Source: an uncultured Bacilli bacterium (GTDB lineage: Bacteria; Bacillota_I; Bacilli_A; RF39; UBA660). Taken from it: a DNA stretch of 44,723 nt. Of this stretch, positions 12,172 to 44,723 are shown one piece after another. A program made the position numbers and the translations under genes. The DNA lies in contig CALVRX010000008.1 of the NCBI GenBank assembly GCA_944358815.1, positions 1 to 44,723 on the forward strand. Reading direction: 5' to 3'. Numbering within the stretch: position 1 is the stretch's first letter; each line of letters begins with the position of its first letter. The notes below the pieces were generated by a model. That model was not told where the DNA came from. It made no database searches and saw only the letters and a list, made by a program, of their open reading frames with translations.

Positions 12172-12511
12172 ATTTACATCTCCCTTCTAGTAAATCTCTT
12201 ACAATACCAGTATAAAGTAAATTTAATATCTTTGCAATTAAAACTGTATTGCTTTTTCCGACAAAATTTTTACTACATAAACTTATAAAATAATGTGCAC
12301 AAGTACTACATCGACGATTTTAATTTTACACAAATTTGAGTTGCATTTTTAGAAATATGTTTGAATGAAGGTAAATTTTGACTGAATGCTAACAAGTGTC
12401 ATTAGTAAAATACTTTTTTATCAAAATTGTAATATTATTTATCATTAAAACAAATTTACTATTTTTCGAAAAATTTTGCGGTATTATTTTTATTGTAAAG
12501 AGGAGCAGTAT
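12172..12511. other. Divergent intergenic region between the cold-shock gene and agrB
   Basis: This 340-base gap holds the leader of the cold-shock gene (roughly 12172-12300, minus strand) and the agrB control region with the direct repeats at 12362-12388. I see no further open frame with a ribosome site. Confidence 0.6.
12362..12388 (+). promoter_or_regulatory. Direct repeats upstream of agrB, candidate AgrA (LytTR) operator
   Basis: TGAATG occurs at 12362-12367 and again at 12383-12388, exactly 21 bases apart, each followed by a loosely similar A-rich extension (AAGGTAA, CTAACAA). LytTR regulators such as AgrA typically bind two direct half-sites about 21 bases apart, on one face of the DNA, next to a poor -35. 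A TAAAAT box follows at about 12405. The link to the response regulator at 14674-15375 is inferred. Confidence 0.45.
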
Positions 12512-13111
12512 ATGAAAGAAGTTTTTATTAATAGTTCTATGAATATTATTAAAAAATATTATCCTGATTATTCTGATATAAAACTGGCAGAATTGAAATA
12601 TGGATTATTAGGATTATATTTATTAATAACTAAGTCTATTATTATTTTTGGAATTGCTTTTTTCTTAGGAATTTTTAAAGAACTACTGATCTTTACAATT
12701 ATTTATAATATTTTAAGGGCAGTATCGTTTGGAATACATGCACCAAAGAGTTGGATATGTTTGGTATCTTCTGCATTGATATTTCTTGTATCCACTTATT
12801 TAAGTACTTTTATTGTAATGCCTATTAATGTGAAAATAATTTTAGGAATAATTGGTATTATGATAATATGCAAATATAGTCCAGCTGATACGGCAAAAAG
12901 GCCTATTGTTAGTCCAAAAAGAAGATTATTTTATAAAATAGCATCTACTATTATTGCATTTGTATTTTTGATTTGTTCTATTATTATAAATAATAATTTT
13001 TTAGCTAATACGTTTATTTTATCAATTTTAATACAATGTATTATGATTAGTCCTGTAACTTATAAGCTGGCAGGTGAATCATACGATAACTATAAAAGTT
13101 ATCAACCATAA
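12512..13111 (+). CDS. agrB: AgrB, membrane cysteine protease that processes the autoinducer peptide
   Basis: A 199-residue integral membrane protein with five to six hydrophobic segments. The catalytic pair is His76 in SFGIHAPKS and Cys83 in WICL, the same seven-residue spacing as His77/Cys84 of S. aureus AgrB. A cytoplasmic basic loop KYSPADTAKRPIVSPKRR also fits the family. AgrB removes the AgrD tail and forms the (thio)lactone ring. The ATG at 12512 has GAGGAG 7 bases upstream; an earlier in-frame ATG at 12476 lacks a site. agrD follows 55 bases downstream on the same strand. Confidence 0.93.
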   Translation: MKEVFINSSMNIIKKYYPDYSDIKLAELKYGLLGLYLLITKSIIIFGIAFFLGIFKELLIFTIIYNILRAVSFGIHAPKSWICLVSSALIFLVSTYLSTFIVMPINVKIILGIIGIMIICKYSPADTAKRPIVSPKRRLFYKIASTIIAFVFLICSIIINNNFLANTFILSILIQCIMISPVTYKLAGESYDNYKSYQP

Positions 13112-13166
13112 TTGATGGTTTAAATTTTTATAATTTAAACATAGATAAAAAGAAAGGGGTATGTTT

Positions 13167-13286
13167 ATGAATTTTGTTGCATCATTATTATCTGCACTAG
13201 GCAATATGTTTGCTGGTTCTGCTAGCAATGCTTGTATTGGCTGGTGGATTGATGAACCTGAATGTCCAAAAAGTTTAATTAAATAA
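13167..13286 (+). CDS. agrD: AgrD-type cyclic autoinducer propeptide (39 residues)
   Basis: This short gene encodes the quorum-sensing signal precursor. The N-terminal amphipathic part is MNFVASLLSALGNMFAGSAS, the signal core is NACIGWWI with ring cysteine Cys23, and the recognition tail is DEPECPKSLIK, matching the DExExPKSL-type AgrD tail. By alignment with known AgrD the ring would be CIGWW or CIGWWI with a short exocyclic tail. The ATG at 13167 has AAAGGGG 7 bases upstream; an in-frame ATG at 13161 is too close. The tail has an extra Cys33. It ends 15 bases before a shared terminator. Confidence 0.9.
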   Translation: MNFVASLLSALGNMFAGSASNACIGWWIDEPECPKSLIK

Positions 13287-13300
13287 AACCAAAAACAATA

Positions 13301-13329
13301 AAAACGTCATTTTATATAAGTGGCGTTTT
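13301..13329. terminator. Bidirectional terminator between agrBD and the convergent agrCA-like genes
   Basis: Stem AAAACGTCA / TGGCGTTTT (one G-U pair) with an 11-base loop. T8 follows on the plus strand and TTTTT on the minus strand. Confidence 0.85.
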
Positions 13330-13343
13330 TTTTTGATAAAATT

Positions 13344-14672
13344 TTAAATTTTTATTTTAAGAGTTTGTGTAAATGTATCATTAGTTATGCTTTTTTCATT
13401 TATAAGTTTATTAGGTTCTTCATTTAAAATATTATTAACTAATGTTAATCCATAGCCATGACCTTTGCCTTTGGTTGTATATTTAATATTTGTAATTTTA
13501 TCAATATCTAAATTGCCTTTAAAATTATTTGTTATATTGATACATAAATATTTATTCAAAATATATAGTTCTATTACAATTTCTCTTTTTCTTAATTTTC
13601 TGACTGCATCAATAGCATTATCTAAAAATACACCTAATATTTTACAGATTTTTAAAACTAAATCTTCATCTAAATTAATTAAATCAGTAGTTCTAACATC
13701 TCTTGAAATAATAAGATTATGTTTGATTTTTAATTTATCCATTAAACATAATTTAGAATATATGGTAGCCCTTAATCCGCCTTCCGGTATTTTAGATGTT
13801 TGTTTCATGATTTTATCATTATCTTTTATTTTATTGTCTACTAATGTATCTATATATTTAATAACATTTTCTTTATTATTTTTGTCTTTAAGCATATTTC
13901 TAATAGTCAAAAATTCATTTTTATTTTCGTGGGTATCTACTCTAAATTTGTCAATCATAACTTCATATTCTTTTAAACTAGATATACTATTTTCATATTT
14001 ATTATTAATTTTTTCTAATTCTCCTTGTTTTATAATGTATCTTGTTACTGTAAAGATAAACAAACATATAACAATCATATTTATGATTAAGACATATATT
14101 GGATTCCATCTTAAGTAACTAGAGCATGTAGAGAAAATAGCTAATAATATAAAGAAAATTGAGTAAATTGTTATCCATTTATTTTTGGATTTATTTGAAT
14201 ATTTAATCAATAAACGAGACCGCGAAAATATTTTAACTACATTAAATATGATAAATGCAATAACTGCAATAATAATGTTTATTGTTATACCATTATATAC
14301 TGTTGTATACAAAACTGTATTATCTTTTGTTATAAGTGCAGAGTATAACAGTGCAAATATTAATTCAGAAACAATTAAAACCACACTAGAAATCATTACA
14401 CTTGTAATAGAAAGTTTTATAGATTTACTTAACAAAAAATAGTTTATACAAATTAACCCTATTACATTAATAATTAATCTTAATGATTCAAATGGTATAA
14501 ATTGCTTTAATGGTAAAAATAGTGCAATGGATAAAATAATTATAGCAATCTTGCATTTATTTTCTTTTAAATTCATATTTATATTTATTAATTTTATCCA
14601 AGCATATGTGTAAAAGCTTCCAACAAATAAACTTCCTATAAAATAATTTAAGAAAGTATAAAATGTTGTCAT
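13344..14672 (-). CDS. agrC: AgrC-like receptor histidine kinase (GHKL/HPK10 type)
   Basis: A 442-residue protein. About six membrane segments fill residues 1-212 and would form the peptide sensor. The cytoplasmic part has the phospho-acceptor His248 in THENKNEFLTIRNML, the N-box FLDNAIDA (Asn352) and the G-box GKGHGYGL (402-409), all typical of AgrC. It starts one base after the response regulator stop, so the two are translationally coupled. The order RR then HK on the opposite strand to agrBD differs from staphylococcal agrBDCA. Activation by the local AgrD product is inferred from context. Confidence 0.9.
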   Translation of the reverse strand: MTTFYTFLNYFIGSLFVGSFYTYAWIKLININMNLKENKCKIAIIILSIALFLPLKQFIPFESLRLIINVIGLICINYFLLSKSIKLSITSVMISSVVLIVSELIFALLYSALITKDNTVLYTTVYNGITINIIIAVIAFIIFNVVKIFSRSRLLIKYSNKSKNKWITIYSIFFILLAIFSTCSSYLRWNPIYVLIINMIVICLFIFTVTRYIIKQGELEKINNKYENSISSLKEYEVMIDKFRVDTHENKNEFLTIRNMLKDKNNKENVIKYIDTLVDNKIKDNDKIMKQTSKIPEGGLRATIYSKLCLMDKLKIKHNLIISRDVRTTDLINLDEDLVLKICKILGVFLDNAIDAVRKLRKREIVIELYILNKYLCINITNNFKGNLDIDKITNIKYTTKGKGHGYGLTLVNNILNEEPNKLINEKSITNDTFTQTLKIKI

Positions 14673-14673
14673 C

Positions 14674-15375
14674 TTAAATCAACTCCTTATCAAATCTGGT
14701 AGAAATTAAGTCAGATGTCATTCCATTATCAAAAACAACTCTTTTTTGCGATTTGCTAAAACTAAGGATGCGTTTAGTATTCATAATACACGCACGATGA
14801 GTTTTGACAAAGTTATCATTAAGCATAGCTTTTAATTCATTTAAGGTTTTTCCTACTTTAAATTCATTATAATCAGTAACAATAATACATTTCCTATCAA
14901 CGCTATCTCTGGTTATATATAAAATATCATCTTGTGGTATCGTATATACTACACCATTATCTTTAAATCTTACGATACTTTTGATTTTAAACATTTTTAA
15001 TGCTTTATCTATAGAATTGAATAATCTTTTTTCACAATTATCAAATTTATTGATATACGATAAAAATAGGAAGTCATTTTTTATAACAACATGTCCTAAT
15101 TCTTGATGACCTGTTAAAAATATTAAAACACTATCTACATCTTTCATTCTAATAATTCTAGCAATATCAATACCTGATTTACTAGGTGTTTCTATGTCTA
15201 AAATATATACTTTAAATGGCAGTTTAGATTCCACTATTTGCATAAATTGTTTATTATAATCTTCAAATATATGAATTTTATATTCTAGTTTATTTTTCAT
15301 CATATATGTGTCGATAACTTTTTCAACCATTTCACGATATTTTTTTGCATCATCACATACAATAAAATTTATCAT
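14674..15375 (-). CDS. agrA: AgrA-like LytTR response regulator
   Basis: A 233-residue regulator. The receiver domain (1-125) has acidic Asp8/Asp9, phospho-acceptor Asp60 in VYILDIETP, Thr88 in FLTGH and Lys110. The LytTR DNA-binding domain occupies about 135-230 (DILYITRDSVDRKCIIV, FVKTHRACIMNTKRI). The ATG at 15375 is chosen because AAGG lies 8 bases upstream; the ATG at 15396 has no ribosome site. It heads a two-gene transcript with the kinase. The candidate target is the direct repeat pair before agrB. Confidence 0.9.
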   Translation of the reverse strand: MINFIVCDDAKKYREMVEKVIDTYMMKNKLEYKIHIFEDYNKQFMQIVESKLPFKVYILDIETPSKSGIDIARIIRMKDVDSVLIFLTGHQELGHVVIKNDFLFLSYINKFDNCEKRLFNSIDKALKMFKIKSIVRFKDNGVVYTIPQDDILYITRDSVDRKCIIVTDYNEFKVGKTLNELKAMLNDNFVKTHRACIMNTKRILSFSKSQKRVVFDNGMTSDLISTRFDKELI

Positions 15376-15460
15376 AAATATTACCTTGCCTCTCATAATA
15401 TAACGTTTTTTGTTATTATTTCCTATGTAAATATATCACATTTTTTAGAATTATACAATA

Positions 15461-15494
15461 AAAAAAGGTAACTTTTTTACAAGTTACTTTTTTT
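15461..15494. terminator. Terminator between the lipoprotein gene and agrA
   Basis: GTAACTT / AAGTTAC with a 6-base loop, flanked by A6 and T7, works in both directions. It separates the ATPase/lipoprotein transcript from the agr regulator pair. Confidence 0.88.
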
Positions 15495-15503
15495 ATGTTT
15501 TTT

Positions 15504-25571: not shown

Positions 25572-25591
25572 AAAAACACCTTTTGGTGTTT
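25572..25591 (-). terminator. Intrinsic terminator of the first lysozyme-like gene
   Basis: On the minus strand AAACACC / GGTGTTT with loop AAAA is followed by TTC and T5. It overlaps the stop codon. Confidence 0.8.
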
Positions 25592-26291
25592 AAGCAGCTT
25601 TTATTTTACTTATATAGTGATTTACTTTAGTAGCCCAGCTAGTACTAGCGGCATACTTTTTATTCATTTTTTCAGGAGTATTTAAACCTTGATCATAGTA
25701 ATTTTCTTTTAAATTAATCATAAAGGCATAAATTCCTTCATCTAGAGAATTAAATCGTTTATAAGATGTGCCATTACAACTTGGACCACCTTTCATGCCA
25801 CCAACATTGTAACATTCTCTGACTTGTTTACTACAAGTTCCATTGCAACCAGTTTCGTGAAGGACAATAGCGACAGCTAAATAAGGGTCAATGCCCATTT
25901 CAACAGCATATTTGGCAAAACTTTTGCCAGTGCCAGCTAATGTCGAATGCAATGAACGATCAAGTTTGGCAGTTAATTCAGTTAAAGTTAATCCATCGAA
26001 AACTACTGGTTCAGCAGGTTGTTCCTGAACGACTGGTTCAGCAGGAGCAGGCGCTGGTGCTGGTTTTGGAGTTTCTACTGGTGCTGGTGGAGTTACTTGA
26101 ACTGGCGTTCCTGATTCATCTGGTTCTGGAGTGGCAATGGCAACTTCATTTTTAGAAATGTTAGATTCTGTTTTTGTGGTTGTTTCAGTTTCAAGTTTTT
26201 TAGTCTGTTCAGTAGTTGTTAAACGTGGTATAGCAATAGACATTAATACACCAAATATTACTACAAAAGTTACTTTTAATGTCGAATTCAT
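25590..26291 (-). CDS. Secreted or membrane-tethered lysozyme/glucosaminidase-like protein 1
   Basis: A 233-residue exported protein with an N-terminal hydrophobic segment (residues 5-22), a long Pro/Ala/Glu/Thr-rich stalk (about 25-98) and a C-terminal domain (100-233). That domain has DPYLAVAIVLHETGC, YNVGGMKG, FNSLDEGIYAFMINL and KYAASTSWATKV, typical of glucosaminidase or lytic-transglycosylase-like folds; Glu146 is the likely catalytic acid. Four cysteines (149, 153, 160, 172) surround the active site. It is paralogous to the gene at 26419-27225 and has a matching promoter. The start has TAGGAGAG upstream. Confidence 0.85.
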   Translation of the reverse strand: MNSTLKVTFVVIFGVLMSIAIPRLTTTEQTKKLETETTTKTESNISKNEVAIATPEPDESGTPVQVTPPAPVETPKPAPAPAPAEPVVQEQPAEPVVFDGLTLTELTAKLDRSLHSTLAGTGKSFAKYAVEMGIDPYLAVAIVLHETGCNGTCSKQVRECYNVGGMKGGPSCNGTSYKRFNSLDEGIYAFMINLKENYYDQGLNTPEKMNKKYAASTSWATKVNHYISKIKAA

Positions 26292-26319
26292 TTACATCTC
26301 TCCTACTATTCTATTGTTT

Positions 26320-26348
26320 ATTTTATCATAATAAATTTTTAGCGTCAA
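26320..26348 (-). promoter_or_regulatory. Promoter of lysozyme-like gene 1
   Basis: On the minus strand -35 TTGACG (26348-26343) and -10 TAAAAT (26325-26320) are 17 bases apart. The upstream block CGACA-N11-ATTTGACGC is nearly repeated at the second gene. Confidence 0.75.
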
Positions 26349-26397
26349 ATTTGTGTACAATTGTCGTTTTCTTTGTAATTAAAGGTTGACTTGGTCA

Positions 26398-26431
26398 AAA
26401 ATAAAAGAAGCAAAAAAATTAATTTGCTTCT
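26398..26431 (-). terminator. Intrinsic terminator of lysozyme-like gene 2
   Basis: On the minus strand AGAAGCAAA / TTTGCTTCT with an 8-base loop is followed by TTTATTTTT. It overlaps the 3' end of the gene. Confidence 0.82.
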
Positions 26432-27225
26432 ATTTCATTCATGTAGGTACGAATTTTAGATGGCCAGGTAGTACTAGCGGCATATTTTGGTCCAATAGTT
26501 TCTGGTGTAGTTAATCCTTGAGCATAATAATTTTTATATAAATTATTCATGAATGCTCTGATACCTTCATCTAAACTAGAAAAGGATTTATAAGAGCCAC
26601 CATTACATCCTGGAGATCCTTTCATTCCACCAACATTATTACATTGTTTTAGAAGAGTTGAACAGTTCCATTTACAACCTGTTTCATGTAGTACTATAGC
26701 AACAGCTAAATAAGGATCAATGCCTAATTCTACTGAATATTTAGCAAAACTTGCTCCTTGACCTGATAAGGTCGAATTTAGTGAACGATTTAATTTAGCT
26801 ACTAACTCATCATAAGTTATACTGGTTCCTGACTTCGCAGTGACTTGTTTAGCTGCTTCATCTGCTTTAAGTTTAGCTTCAGCTTGTCTACGTTCCTCTT
26901 CTTTTTGTTTTTCTAATTCTAATGCTCTTTTTCGAGCTAGTTTTATTTGTCTTAATTCTTCGACATCAATTTCAATTTTTAGCGAATCTACGTCTTTGGT
27001 TAATTCACTATTAATTGGTTTTATTTCTAACTTGTTTAAATTCAAAGGTGTTTTTGTACGTTCATTCATGTTTAATTTATCTTGCATAAGTGTATTGGTC
27101 ATGAATGATTCGCGGATTTGCTTAAGGCTTTGAGCCCTAGCAACAGTAGGATGCCATAGGGCAGATACTACTGTTAAAATGATTATGGCCATAATATTGG
27201 CCTTAATCGATTGGTTTGTTTCCAT
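26419..27225 (-). CDS. Secreted lysozyme/glucosaminidase-like protein 2
   Basis: A 268-residue protein with a signal peptide likely cleaved after VARA (residue 31). A charged coiled-coil-like segment follows (LRQIKLARKRALELEKQKEE), then the same C-terminal catalytic domain as its neighbour: DPYLAVAIVLHETGC, NNVGGMKG, FSSLDEGIRAFMNNL and KYAASTTWPSKI. The four cysteines keep the same spacing. The linker differs wholly from paralogue 1, so the catalytic domain was duplicated and given a different carrier. The ATG at 27225 follows AGGAGAGGG; a GTG at 27231 is the alternative. Confidence 0.85.
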   Translation of the reverse strand: METNQSIKANIMAIIILTVVSALWHPTVARAQSLKQIRESFMTNTLMQDKLNMNERTKTPLNLNKLEIKPINSELTKDVDSLKIEIDVEELRQIKLARKRALELEKQKEEERRQAEAKLKADEAAKQVTAKSGTSITYDELVAKLNRSLNSTLSGQGASFAKYSVELGIDPYLAVAIVLHETGCKWNCSTLLKQCNNVGGMKGSPGCNGGSYKSFSSLDEGIRAFMNNLYKNYYAQGLTTPETIGPKYAASTTWPSKIRTYMNEIEAN

Positions 27226-27268
27226 TTTCACCCTCTCCTGTTAATTGCAAAATCAGAAAACGGACTTT

Positions 27269-41594: not shown

Positions 41595-41721
41595 CCTTTT
41601 TGTGCAAATTTCAGAGAAAAAGAGTAAAAGTTCTTCGCAATCATTAAACTATAAATACTACATACAAAAAAAATTATATTTGTTAAAATATGATTATAAG
41701 AATAAAGGTGGTTATGTAGTA

Positions 41722-42915
41722 ATGAATAGAAAACAAAGACGAGAACTAAAAAAAGATAAAAATTTACTTAATGAATTATATTCTATAATAAAAAAATATT
41801 TACCAGAATTATTAGATAGATTTAATAACTTAACGGACATGAGAAATCAAAGTTATATTAAATATTCTATGAAAGTAATATGTGTAACTAGACTATTTCC
41901 TTTACTTTGTGGAATAACTACTATGACAGATATTTCTTCTGATTATTTTAATACTGATAATTGTATTAATAACTTATCAAATATATGTAATGAACAATTA
42001 AAAGAACTACCTTATTGGGAAACTATCCAAGATGTATTTGAAAATATTAATATTGATGAATTAAGGGATATTCAAAAATATATTATTAAAGCTTTAATAC
42101 GCTCAAAGATGTTCGATAAATACAAATATAATGGTTATTTTCAACTCGTAATGGACGGGTCTGGTTTATCTAGTCATAGTTATAACTTAAATAACAATTG
42201 TATCAAGAAGAAATATAAAGATGGACATATTGCTTACTGTAAATACATTTTAGAATGTAAATTAATTGCAGGTAATTTAGTTTTAAGTTTAGACAGTGAA
42301 TGGATAGAAAACGAAGAAAATTTATCCGATAAACAAAAACAAGATTGTGAAATTAAAGCTTTTAAAAGAATGGCAACAAGAGTAAAACAAAATTATCAAA
42401 AATATAAATTTATCATAACTGCTGATGCACTATATTGTACTAGTCCCATAATGGATATTTGTAATAAAATGAACTGGAAATTTATTTTTAATTTTAACGA
42501 AAGATTAAAAACTGTATGGAAAGATTTTAATGATTATATCAAATACTTTAATGACTGTAATCTTAATAACTATTATCTCGACAAAAATTACAAGTATAAA
42601 AATCAAGTCTTTAATATTATCAAATTTACTTTAAATAAAAAAGGAAAAGTCACTAACTTCCATTACATAACTAATTTGGAGACTAAAGATAATAATATCA
42701 AAGATATTGTATGTTTAGGAAGAAATCGTTGGAAAATAGAAAATCAAGGTTTTTATACACAAAAACATAGAACTTTTAATATTACTCATTTAAATAGTAG
42801 AAATGATATTGCCATGAAAAATCATTATTTATTTATACAAATTGCTCATACTATTAGGCAACTATTGGAACAAGGTAATATTTTAGTTAAATCTTTAAAT
42901 ATCAAAATAAAATAA
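41722..42915 (+). CDS. DDE transposase (IS4-like clan), copy 1, C-terminally truncated
   Basis: A 397-residue DDE transposase. The catalytic acids are likely in LVMDGSGLSS, FIITADALYC and NRWKIENQGFYTQKHR, the last being the RWKIENxGFxTQK signature of a common IS4-related group. KQKQDCEIKAFKRMA is also conserved. Compared with copy 2 it has a 5-bp tandem duplication (about 42907-42916) that creates an early stop and removes the last 30 residues, including the family-like end FQLRFDT; activity is therefore uncertain. The ATG at 41722 follows AAAGGTGG. The exact ISfinder family was not determined. Confidence 0.88.
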   Translation: MNRKQRRELKKDKNLLNELYSIIKKYLPELLDRFNNLTDMRNQSYIKYSMKVICVTRLFPLLCGITTMTDISSDYFNTDNCINNLSNICNEQLKELPYWETIQDVFENINIDELRDIQKYIIKALIRSKMFDKYKYNGYFQLVMDGSGLSSHSYNLNNNCIKKKYKDGHIAYCKYILECKLIAGNLVLSLDSEWIENEENLSDKQKQDCEIKAFKRMATRVKQNYQKYKFIITADALYCTSPIMDICNKMNWKFIFNFNERLKTVWKDFNDYIKYFNDCNLNNYYLDKNYKYKNQVFNIIKFTLNKKGKVTNFHYITNLETKDNNIKDIVCLGRNRWKIENQGFYTQKHRTFNITHLNSRNDIAMKNHYLFIQIAHTIRQLLEQGNILVKSLNIKIK

Positions 42916-43416: not shown

Positions 43417-44723
43417 TAGTGATTTCAAAGAACAAATATAGTATAATTTAAGTATCAAATCTTAATTGAAAATTGGTTTGTAAATGATTAAGATCTGATG
43501 TGGTTGAAGTAAGCGAGGCTAGAAGAAACCTGCTTACTTCTTTTATTTTGAGATTTAAAGATTTTACTAAAATATTTCCTTGTTCTAATAGTTGCCTAAT
43601 AGTATGAGCGATTTGTATAAATAAATAATGATTTTTCATGGCAGTATCATTTCTACTATTTAAATGAGTAATATTAAAAGTTCTATGCTTTTGCGTATAA
43701 AAGCCATGATTTTCTATTTTCCAACGATTTCTTCCTAAATATACAATATCTTTGATATTGTTATCCTTAGTTTCCAAATTAGTTATGTAATGAAAACTAG
43801 TGAGTTTTTGTTTTTTATTTAAGGTAAATTTAATAATATTAAAAACATGTTTTTTATATTTATAATTTTTATCTAGATAATAGTTATTAAGATTACAGTC
43901 ATTAAAATATTCGATATAATCATTAAAATCCTTCCATACTGTTTTTAGTCTTTCATTAAAATTAAAAATAAATTTCCAGTTCATTTTATTACAAATATCT
44001 ATTATGGGACTAGTACAATATAGAGCATCGGCAGTTATGATGAATTTATACTTTGGATAATTGTGTTTTATTCTGGTTGCCATTCTTTTAAAAGCTTTAA
44101 TTTCACAGTCTTGTTTTTGTTTATCAGATAAATTTTCTTCATTTTCTATCCATTCACTATCTAAACTTAAAACTAAGTTACCCACTATTAATTTACACTC
44201 TAAAATATATTTGCAATAAGCAACATTGCCATCTTTATATTTTTTCTTTATACAGTTATTATTTAGATTATAACTATGACTGGATAAGCCCGAACCATCT
44301 ATTACCAACTGAAAATAGCCACTATATTTATATTTATCAAACATTTTTGAACGTATTAAAGTCTTAATAATATATTTTTGAATATCTCTTAATTCATCAG
44401 TATTAATATTTTGAAATACGTCTTGAATAGTTTCCCAATAAGGAAGTTCTTTTAAATTTTCATTACATATATTAGCCAAATTATTAATACAATTATCAGT
44501 ATTAAAATAATCAGAAGAAATATCTGTCATAGTAGTTATTCCGCATAGCAATGGAAATAGTCTAGTTACACATATTGCCTTCATGGAATATTTAATATAG
44601 CTTTGGTTTCTAATGTCAGTTAAGTTATTAAATTTATCTAATAATTCTGGTAAGTATTTTTTTATTATGGAATATAATTCGTTAATTAAATTTTTATCTT
44701 TTCTTAATTCTCTTCTTTGTTTT
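43417..44723 (-). mobile_element. Insertion sequence, copy 2, inverted and cut by the window end
   Basis: An inverted copy of the element at 41600-43041. Its right end is at 43417 and it reaches the window edge within the first codons of the transposase. The two copies lie tail to tail, making a large imperfect palindrome of about 3 kb. Confidence 0.85.
43448..44723 (-). CDS. DDE transposase (IS4-like clan), copy 2, start outside the window
   Basis: The frame is open from the window edge (KQRRELRKDKNLINELYS) to the stop at 43448, so only about the first three codons are missing. The catalytic regions match copy 1 (LVIDGSGLSS, FIITADALYC, NRWKIENHGFYTQKHR), with scattered substitutions. Unlike copy 1 it keeps the 30-residue C-terminus EVSRFLLASL...QTNFQLRFDT, so it is probably the full-length and potentially active form. 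Confidence 0.88.
   Translation of the reverse strand, partial: KQRRELRKDKNLINELYSIIKKYLPELLDKFNNLTDIRNQSYIKYSMKAICVTRLFPLLCGITTMTDISSDYFNTDNCINNLANICNENLKELPYWETIQDVFQNINTDELRDIQKYIIKTLIRSKMFDKYKYSGYFQLVIDGSGLSSHSYNLNNNCIKKKYKDGNVAYCKYILECKLIVGNLVLSLDSEWIENEENLSDKQKQDCEIKAFKRMATRIKHNYPKYKFIITADALYCTSPIIDICNKMNWKFIFNFNERLKTVWKDFNDYIEYFNDCNLNNYYLDKNYKYKKHVFNIIKFTLNKKQKLTSFHYITNLETKDNNIKDIVYLGRNRWKIENHGFYTQKHRTFNITHLNSRNDTAMKNHYLFIQIAHTIRQLLEQGNILVKSLNLKIKEVSRFLLASLTSTTSDLNHLQTNFQLRFDT

Follow-up and report, generated by a model that had tools for sequence, protein, structure and literature searches.

The agr locus

The window, that is the whole stretch of 44,723 nucleotides which was analysed, belongs to an assembly of about 1.05 Mb in 50 contigs which is 63% complete. 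A preliminary description of this DNA had claimed a complete, convergent Agr module, with agrB and agrD facing agrC and agrA; the four protein families were identified, each gene lies at the coordinates first given (Table 1), and the layout is kept family-wide. Judged from its genes the locus is a genuine and complete Agr-type system, ordinary in its protein families and presumed chemistry, with a layout which is a new variant.

Table 1. Positions of genes and sequence elements (window coordinates unless another locus is named)
Feature	Position	Strand	Remarks
Predicted AgrA/LytTR-type double site, 5' of agrB	12355..12388	+	ATATGTTTGAATG-8 bp-TTTTGACTGAATG, repeat period 21 bp
Candidate -10 element, agrBD promoter	12409..12414	+	AATACT, 20 bp past the double site
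agrB	12512-13111	+	199 aa membrane peptidase; PF04647 (Pfam AgrB) 105 bits, cut-off 23
agrD	13167-13286	+	39 aa: MNFVASLLSALGNMFAGSASNA-CIGWWI-DEPECPKSLIK
Macrocycle codons C-I-G-W-W-I, predicted six-residue	13233..13250	+	C + 5 before D/E-E
Intrinsic terminator past agrD	13300..13330	+	RNA fold z -4.62 on +, -0.58 on -
agrC	13344-14672	-	442 aa receptor kinase; GHKL PF14501 45 bits
AgrC kinase, residues ~221-442	13347-14012	-	breakpoint near residue 220
AgrC sensor, residues 1 to ~220	14013-14672	-	breakpoint near residue 220
agrA	14674-15375	-	233 aa response regulator; LytTR 50.7 bits, above cut-off
Extended -10 of the agrAC promoter	15430..15438	-	TGATATATT
Terminator, upstream lipoprotein gene/agrA	15461..15494	-	fold of 15455-15503 z -4.52; aligned in genus
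Separate AgrB-like gene, L117	4481-5716	-	
Separate AgrB-like gene, L118	4168-5424	-	
Separate AgrB-like gene, L119	2499-3770	-	
Separate AgrB-like gene, L120	3713-4945	+	

The His76/Cys83 pair noted earlier for AgrB stands at exactly these positions and is invariant in all 94 of 94 related AgrB proteins. A PDB relative of AgrB was sought by sequence and none was found. The search against family models which had been recommended placed both sender proteins above the cut-offs, AgrB with 105 bits (PF04647) and AgrD with 33.5 bits for NCBIfam TIGR04223 (cut-off 19); the Pfam model of staphylococcal AgrD gave 21.1 bits, slightly under its cut-off of 22.7. The ATG which gives AgrD its 39 codons has a good ribosome-binding site, while a start at the in-frame ATG at 13161 would make it 41 amino acids long. 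The 39 codons and the DExExPKSL-type tail had been correctly described, the actual tail being DEPECPKSLIK, and AgrD has what is expected of a precursor: an amphipathic leader, a Cys/Ser core, an acidic-Pro tail and an adjoining agrB. A second agrD, which could have been the true partner, was not found in a search of the 63% complete assembly, and in the profile search of the same assembly this AgrB was the only one. With part of the genome missing, a further AgrD or another receptor may be encoded elsewhere.

AgrC consists of six hydrophobic segments followed by a GHKL kinase half, with the His read from the sequence in the motif DTHENKNE. The S. aureus AgrC model covers residues 28-436 (E 1e-10), and the sole PDB match is the kinase domain of S. 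aureus AgrC (4bxi). AgrA matches its own model with E 1.5e-12 and has ComE (4cbv) as best PDB match; its Response_reg score of 29.6 bits is slightly below the cut-off of 30.2, and the Asp is read in YILDIE. Both receiver proteins fall far under the Staphylococcus equivalog cut-offs (AgrC 41 against 500 bits, AgrA 48 against 400 bits), as expected because they are distant relatives.

The window also contains a Mur-ligase-like gene, a sortase gene and a CotZ-like spore-coat gene, a set which would fit the description of the order RF39 by Field et al. (PMC10868615). The CotZ-like gene (1869-2315, +) hints at sporulation in a lineage with small genomes. Two neighbouring, alike secreted proteins with a C-terminal part which by its sequence is glucosaminidase-like are encoded at 25590-27231 (-), and two near-alike transposase-like genes close to the window's end point in opposite directions (41602-42915, +, and 43448-44584, -).

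Conservation of the convergent arrangement

AgrB is present in 42 of the 44 genomes of the genus and in 107 of 148 genera sampled across the family. When agrC lies at most 2.5 kb downstream of agrB the two genes are scored as adjacent, and this was the case in 37 loci of the genus and 45 of other genera of the family. All 82 have agrB and agrD convergent with agrA and agrC. Within the genus the order secA, csp, agrB, agrD, agrC, agrA, lipoprotein gene, Ca-ATPase gene is also kept. Among loci with enough room on the contig two depart from the rule: G187 has its receiver pair displaced, and G118 carries a further agr copy, a distant one. This distribution indicates that the convergent arrangement is old and fixed in the family.

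Fifteen loci from outside the family could be scored, and in these agrC or agrA is co-directional with agrB. The sample is small, comes largely from other families of Bacilli with a single Clostridium, and barely covers clostridia; a phylum-level search for further outside loci gained no clostridia. In a literature search of partial coverage we found no report of a convergent agr layout or of agr in RF39-like Bacilli.

Five loci of the genus and family (G016, G043, G087, G107 and G123) have a tandem pair of agrC genes beside a single agrD. The two copies are near-identical in G087 and very unlike in G043 (32% sensor identity), and such copies are possibly receptors for peptides of other strains.

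Weak AgrB hits of 411-424 amino acids were considered as AgrB-kinase fusions from which AgrC could have arisen. This was rejected, the hits being a separate AgrB-like membrane family of the same bacterial family. Its members carry the H-x6-C dyad in their AgrB region and have a long membrane part at the N terminus, and by eye their C-terminal end is helix-turn-helix-like; a split form occurs in L121, L122 and L123. In G176 such a gene lies between agrC and agrA; at other loci its neighbour is a gene for an AgrC-like kinase, an agrA-like gene or one of the wecA/tagO type.

Promoters and terminators

LytTR regulators such as AgrA bind sites known to have the form of direct repeats about two helical turns apart. 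The alignment of the DNA 5' of agrB contains two copies of TTTTGTCTGAATG, exactly 21 bp from start to start, which we predict to be an AgrA-type site that AgrA would bind. The double site of the window has a motif score of 32.7, a value which is optimistic since the motif was optimised on these very sequences. A score above 14 was found at the same place in 33 of 40 genomes of the genus (the maximum in shuffled sequences was 6.1), and the spacing was 21 in all 33 even though 20, 21 or 22 was permitted. Motif optimisation should matter less for where the repeats lie, how they are spaced and how agrB contrasts with agrA, and a motif-free count of self-similarity 5' of agrB also peaks at lag 21. 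Some members of the genus, e.g. G002, G005, G015, G025 and G043, have a weak site or none. The aligned position of the candidate -10 element downstream of the double site is kept, by eye, over much of the genus as (T/A)ATACT.

The double site is the sole strong site in the 44.7-kb window and the sole one-mismatch match in the source genome. Most genomes of the genus likewise have their only good match at agrB, with few extra sites, and a large AgrA regulon was therefore rejected. The relative G008 has further clear AgrA-type sites, one of them adjoining a gene for a large secreted RHS/DUF6531 protein. In this genome pairs of double sites face each other at two places, L217 2677-2778 (contig C14) and, 5' of agrB, L062 2519-2620, with an identical offset of 68 bp; one of the pairs is the one beside the RHS/DUF6531 gene. 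Three other genomes have a second csp gene and a second AgrA-type site next to agrB (L053 in G022, L081 in G010 and L082 in G001), apparently by tandem duplication of the csp-promoter region.

The receiver operon looks different. An extended -10 element, TGnTATAWT, is found 5' of agrA in 26 of 31 genus loci against 3 of 41 5' of agrB, and in about 5% of shuffled sequences, while a good 21-bp AgrA-type repeat was absent 5' of agrA in 31 of 32 genus loci. The hairpin between agrA and the lipoprotein gene probably acts as a terminator which insulates agrAC from the gene upstream. Between the two operons the preliminary description had seen one shared terminator. It is strong for agrBD but weak here on the other strand (z -4.6 against -0.6), although a hairpin with a T-run in the agrAC direction occurs in 27 of 37 genus loci. 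An RNAIII-like RNA was looked for with Rfam, and the scan of the window gave two tRNAs and nothing else; a small RNA of another kind may still exist.

In place of a co-directional agrBDCA operon of the staphylococcal type the locus has agrBD and agrAC, convergent and with a terminator between them. That sender and receiver, unlike in staphylococci, form separate units was proposed from the start and agrees with the distinct promoter elements predicted for the two operons. Taken together, these elements suggest that the sender is autoinduced and the receiver pair constitutive.

The peptide signal

The AgrD proteins of the genus have a conserved leader and, at the other end, an invariant E..PKSL.K tail, with a hypervariable core between the two. 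In all 38 that were extracted the core is a Cys (once a Ser) and five further residues, followed by D/E-E and the fixed PKSL.K end. Because this spacing is constant throughout the genus the ring of the autoinducing peptide (AIP) is most likely the six-residue CIGWWI. The choice between CIGWW and CIGWWI had been left open, and it is now the longer form which is favoured; cores of five or seven residues occur solely outside the genus, within the family, where six is the commonest length (30 AgrDs, against 2 with five and 5 with seven). Thiolactones of the form [CIGWWI], A[CIGWWI], NA[CIGWWI] and SNA[CIGWWI] would have [M+H]+ values of 759.365, 830.402, 944.445 and 1031.477.

In these 38 genomes there are 37 distinct cores. 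It follows that a core without match to a known autoinducer, as had been pointed out for this one, is the rule, nearly every species of the genus having its own. Ser replaces the core Cys in two AgrDs, with SWIFWW in L069 (G004) and SFLWFF in L158 (G213), and these are predicted to form a lactone in place of a thiolactone.

Co-variation of signal and receptor

Within the genus the mean identity is 29% for the AgrC sensor, 65% for the AgrC kinase, 68% for AgrA and 61% for AgrB. The distance between AIP cores correlates with the distance between sensors after correction for AgrA (partial r 0.34, p 0.0005); with the same correction the value is 0.25 for AgrB and 0.04 for the kinase, and that for AgrA corrected for the kinase is 0.04. 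The source organism itself is an example. Its nearest relative by sensor, G014, is 52% identical in this part and has the core CAGWWI against CIGWWI, while its nearest relative by kinase, G020, has the core CDWWWY and a sensor which is only 31% identical. In 29 genomes the nearest neighbour by sensor shares 2.76 of 5 core residues and the nearest neighbour by kinase 2.00 of 5 (17 wins, 3 losses, p 0.005). The relationships of the AgrC sensor thus appear to track the AIP core and not phylogeny, which supports AgrD and AgrC as a cognate pair.

In pairs with alike kinases and unlike sensors the identity steps sharply at residue 220; the pairs were picked for this contrast, and it is the sharpness and the position of the step alone which are informative. 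The sensor tree and the kinase+AgrA tree reject each other (AU p below 1e-6). The sensor appears to have been replaced as a module with a break near residue 220, and the simplest reading is that sensor modules which match the AIP core are exchanged. Owing to the inverted orientation of agrC, about 670 bp of conserved sequence encoding its kinase half separate agrD from the sensor segment, and one short exchange cannot bring both parts of the specificity. We found no account of co-variation across a conserved kinase segment in the literature, which was searched with partial coverage.

Alternative explanations

The co-variation could also arise in a real Agr circuit whose sensor evolves fast under selection, the conflict between the trees then reflecting saturation and long branches. 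The low overall identity of the sensor (29%) and some very long branches in its tree are in line with this. Such divergence does not readily account for species pairs which have about 86-91% identical kinases and yet only 23-34% identical sensors when other pairs with alike cores reach 50-68% in the sensor, nor for the sharp break near residue 220, and well-supported sensor clades, e.g. G017+G033 and G004+G006, cut across the kinase+AgrA tree. We consider rapid divergence with saturation the weaker rival to an exchange of sensor modules, and rather unlikely.

The same co-variation bears on the possibility that agrBD makes a secreted cyclic peptide while the neighbouring AgrC and AgrA sense something else and are neighbours by chance or history. 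There are clostridia with agrBD but without agrCA (PMC12312760), and the loci G187 and G118b lack an adjacent agrC despite having room for it. Against these stand the adjacency of agrC and agrB in 82 loci, an AIP core which co-varies with the AgrC sensor and not with the kinase or AgrA, and the AgrA-type site in the agrB promoter; an unrelated receptor is very improbable. Finally, in an incomplete assembly (50 contigs, 63% complete) the convergent layout might have arisen by local inversion or through misassembly of a single metagenome bin. Here the loci of the genus, which come from separate assemblies, share order and flanks (secA, csp, Ca-ATPase), and the identical arrangement recurs in 45 loci of other genera. 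The 82 conserved loci out of 82 refute this explanation and leave it virtually no probability.

A model for the circuit

The genes, their arrangement and conservation, the double site and the co-variation are present in the sequences, and from them we infer the processing, secretion, binding, phosphotransfer and feedback logic of the model. AgrB would cut AgrD ahead of D/E-E and the core Cys would be joined to the residue preceding the cut. The product would be the hexapeptide ring CIGWWI, extended at its N terminus by a tail; the thiolactone chemistry is assumed by analogy with the family. The released peptide would bind the six-helix sensor of AgrC, which would phosphorylate AgrA, and AgrA-P on the 21-bp-spaced double site would increase transcription of agrBD. 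The receiver operon agrAC would have its own, AgrA-independent promoter, so the positive feedback would act on the sender alone. Specificities of sender and receiver would co-diversify among species despite the kinase half between agrD and the sensor.

We give a probability of about 0.85 to an Agr-type AIP quorum-sensing circuit with feedback on the sender only and co-diversifying specificities. The more detailed proposal, that the sensor is swapped at about residue 220 and agrD changes separately, so that matched pairs are held together by selection and not by a linked cassette, with feedback limited to the sender, has in our opinion an even chance of being correct.

Significance

Staphylococci, listeriae and clostridia are the bacteria from which Agr is chiefly known. 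The present family of Bacilli is large and uncultured, with genomes of about 1 Mb; Agr is common in it and near-constant in one genus, in which nearly every species has its own predicted hexapeptide. The family is a natural setting in which to test how receptor and signal stay matched, since a linked exchange is possible in S. aureus whereas here the kinase segment intervenes. The separated control of sender and receiver makes feedback on the signal alone open to study, and the predicted peptides could be made and tried on receptors in laboratory strains without culturing the source organisms. Of most interest are the convergent layout kept throughout the family, the divided control of sender and receiver and a co-variation which reaches across a conserved segment.

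Comparison with known agr systems

The S. aureus system has the same AgrB, AgrD, AgrC and AgrA families, the H/C dyad of AgrB and a D-E..P tail past the AIP, and there too AgrD, AgrB and the AgrC sensor are the parts in which specificity varies. Its sender promoter is controlled by a LytTR regulator at direct repeats about 21 bp apart, as predicted here. It differs in being a single agrBDCA operon, where we find two convergent operons and the receiver order agrA-agrC, and in having RNAIII, for which Rfam gave no match in the window. The AIP ring of S. aureus has five residues (PMC12312760), against six predicted here. The variable region of S. aureus runs from the last part of agrB through agrD into the first part of agrC as one contiguous block (PMC3673130), which here is split by the conserved kinase segment.

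Clostridium acetobutylicum resembles the present system in having separate agrBD and agrCA operons and a six-residue ring (PMC12312760, PMC10301443). Its agrBD and agrCA operons are followed by CA_C0082, whereas the present agrBD and agrAC units are convergent, with agrA ahead of agrC in the receiver and with genes for a lipoprotein-like protein and a Ca-ATPase next to them. The agr2 system of Clostridioides difficile is a single agrACDB locus (PMC3754575) which likewise has agrA ahead of agrC but does not form two convergent units. Split operons and six-residue rings were thus already known, while the family-wide convergent layout and the co-variation across the kinase segment appear, as far as we could find, to be new.
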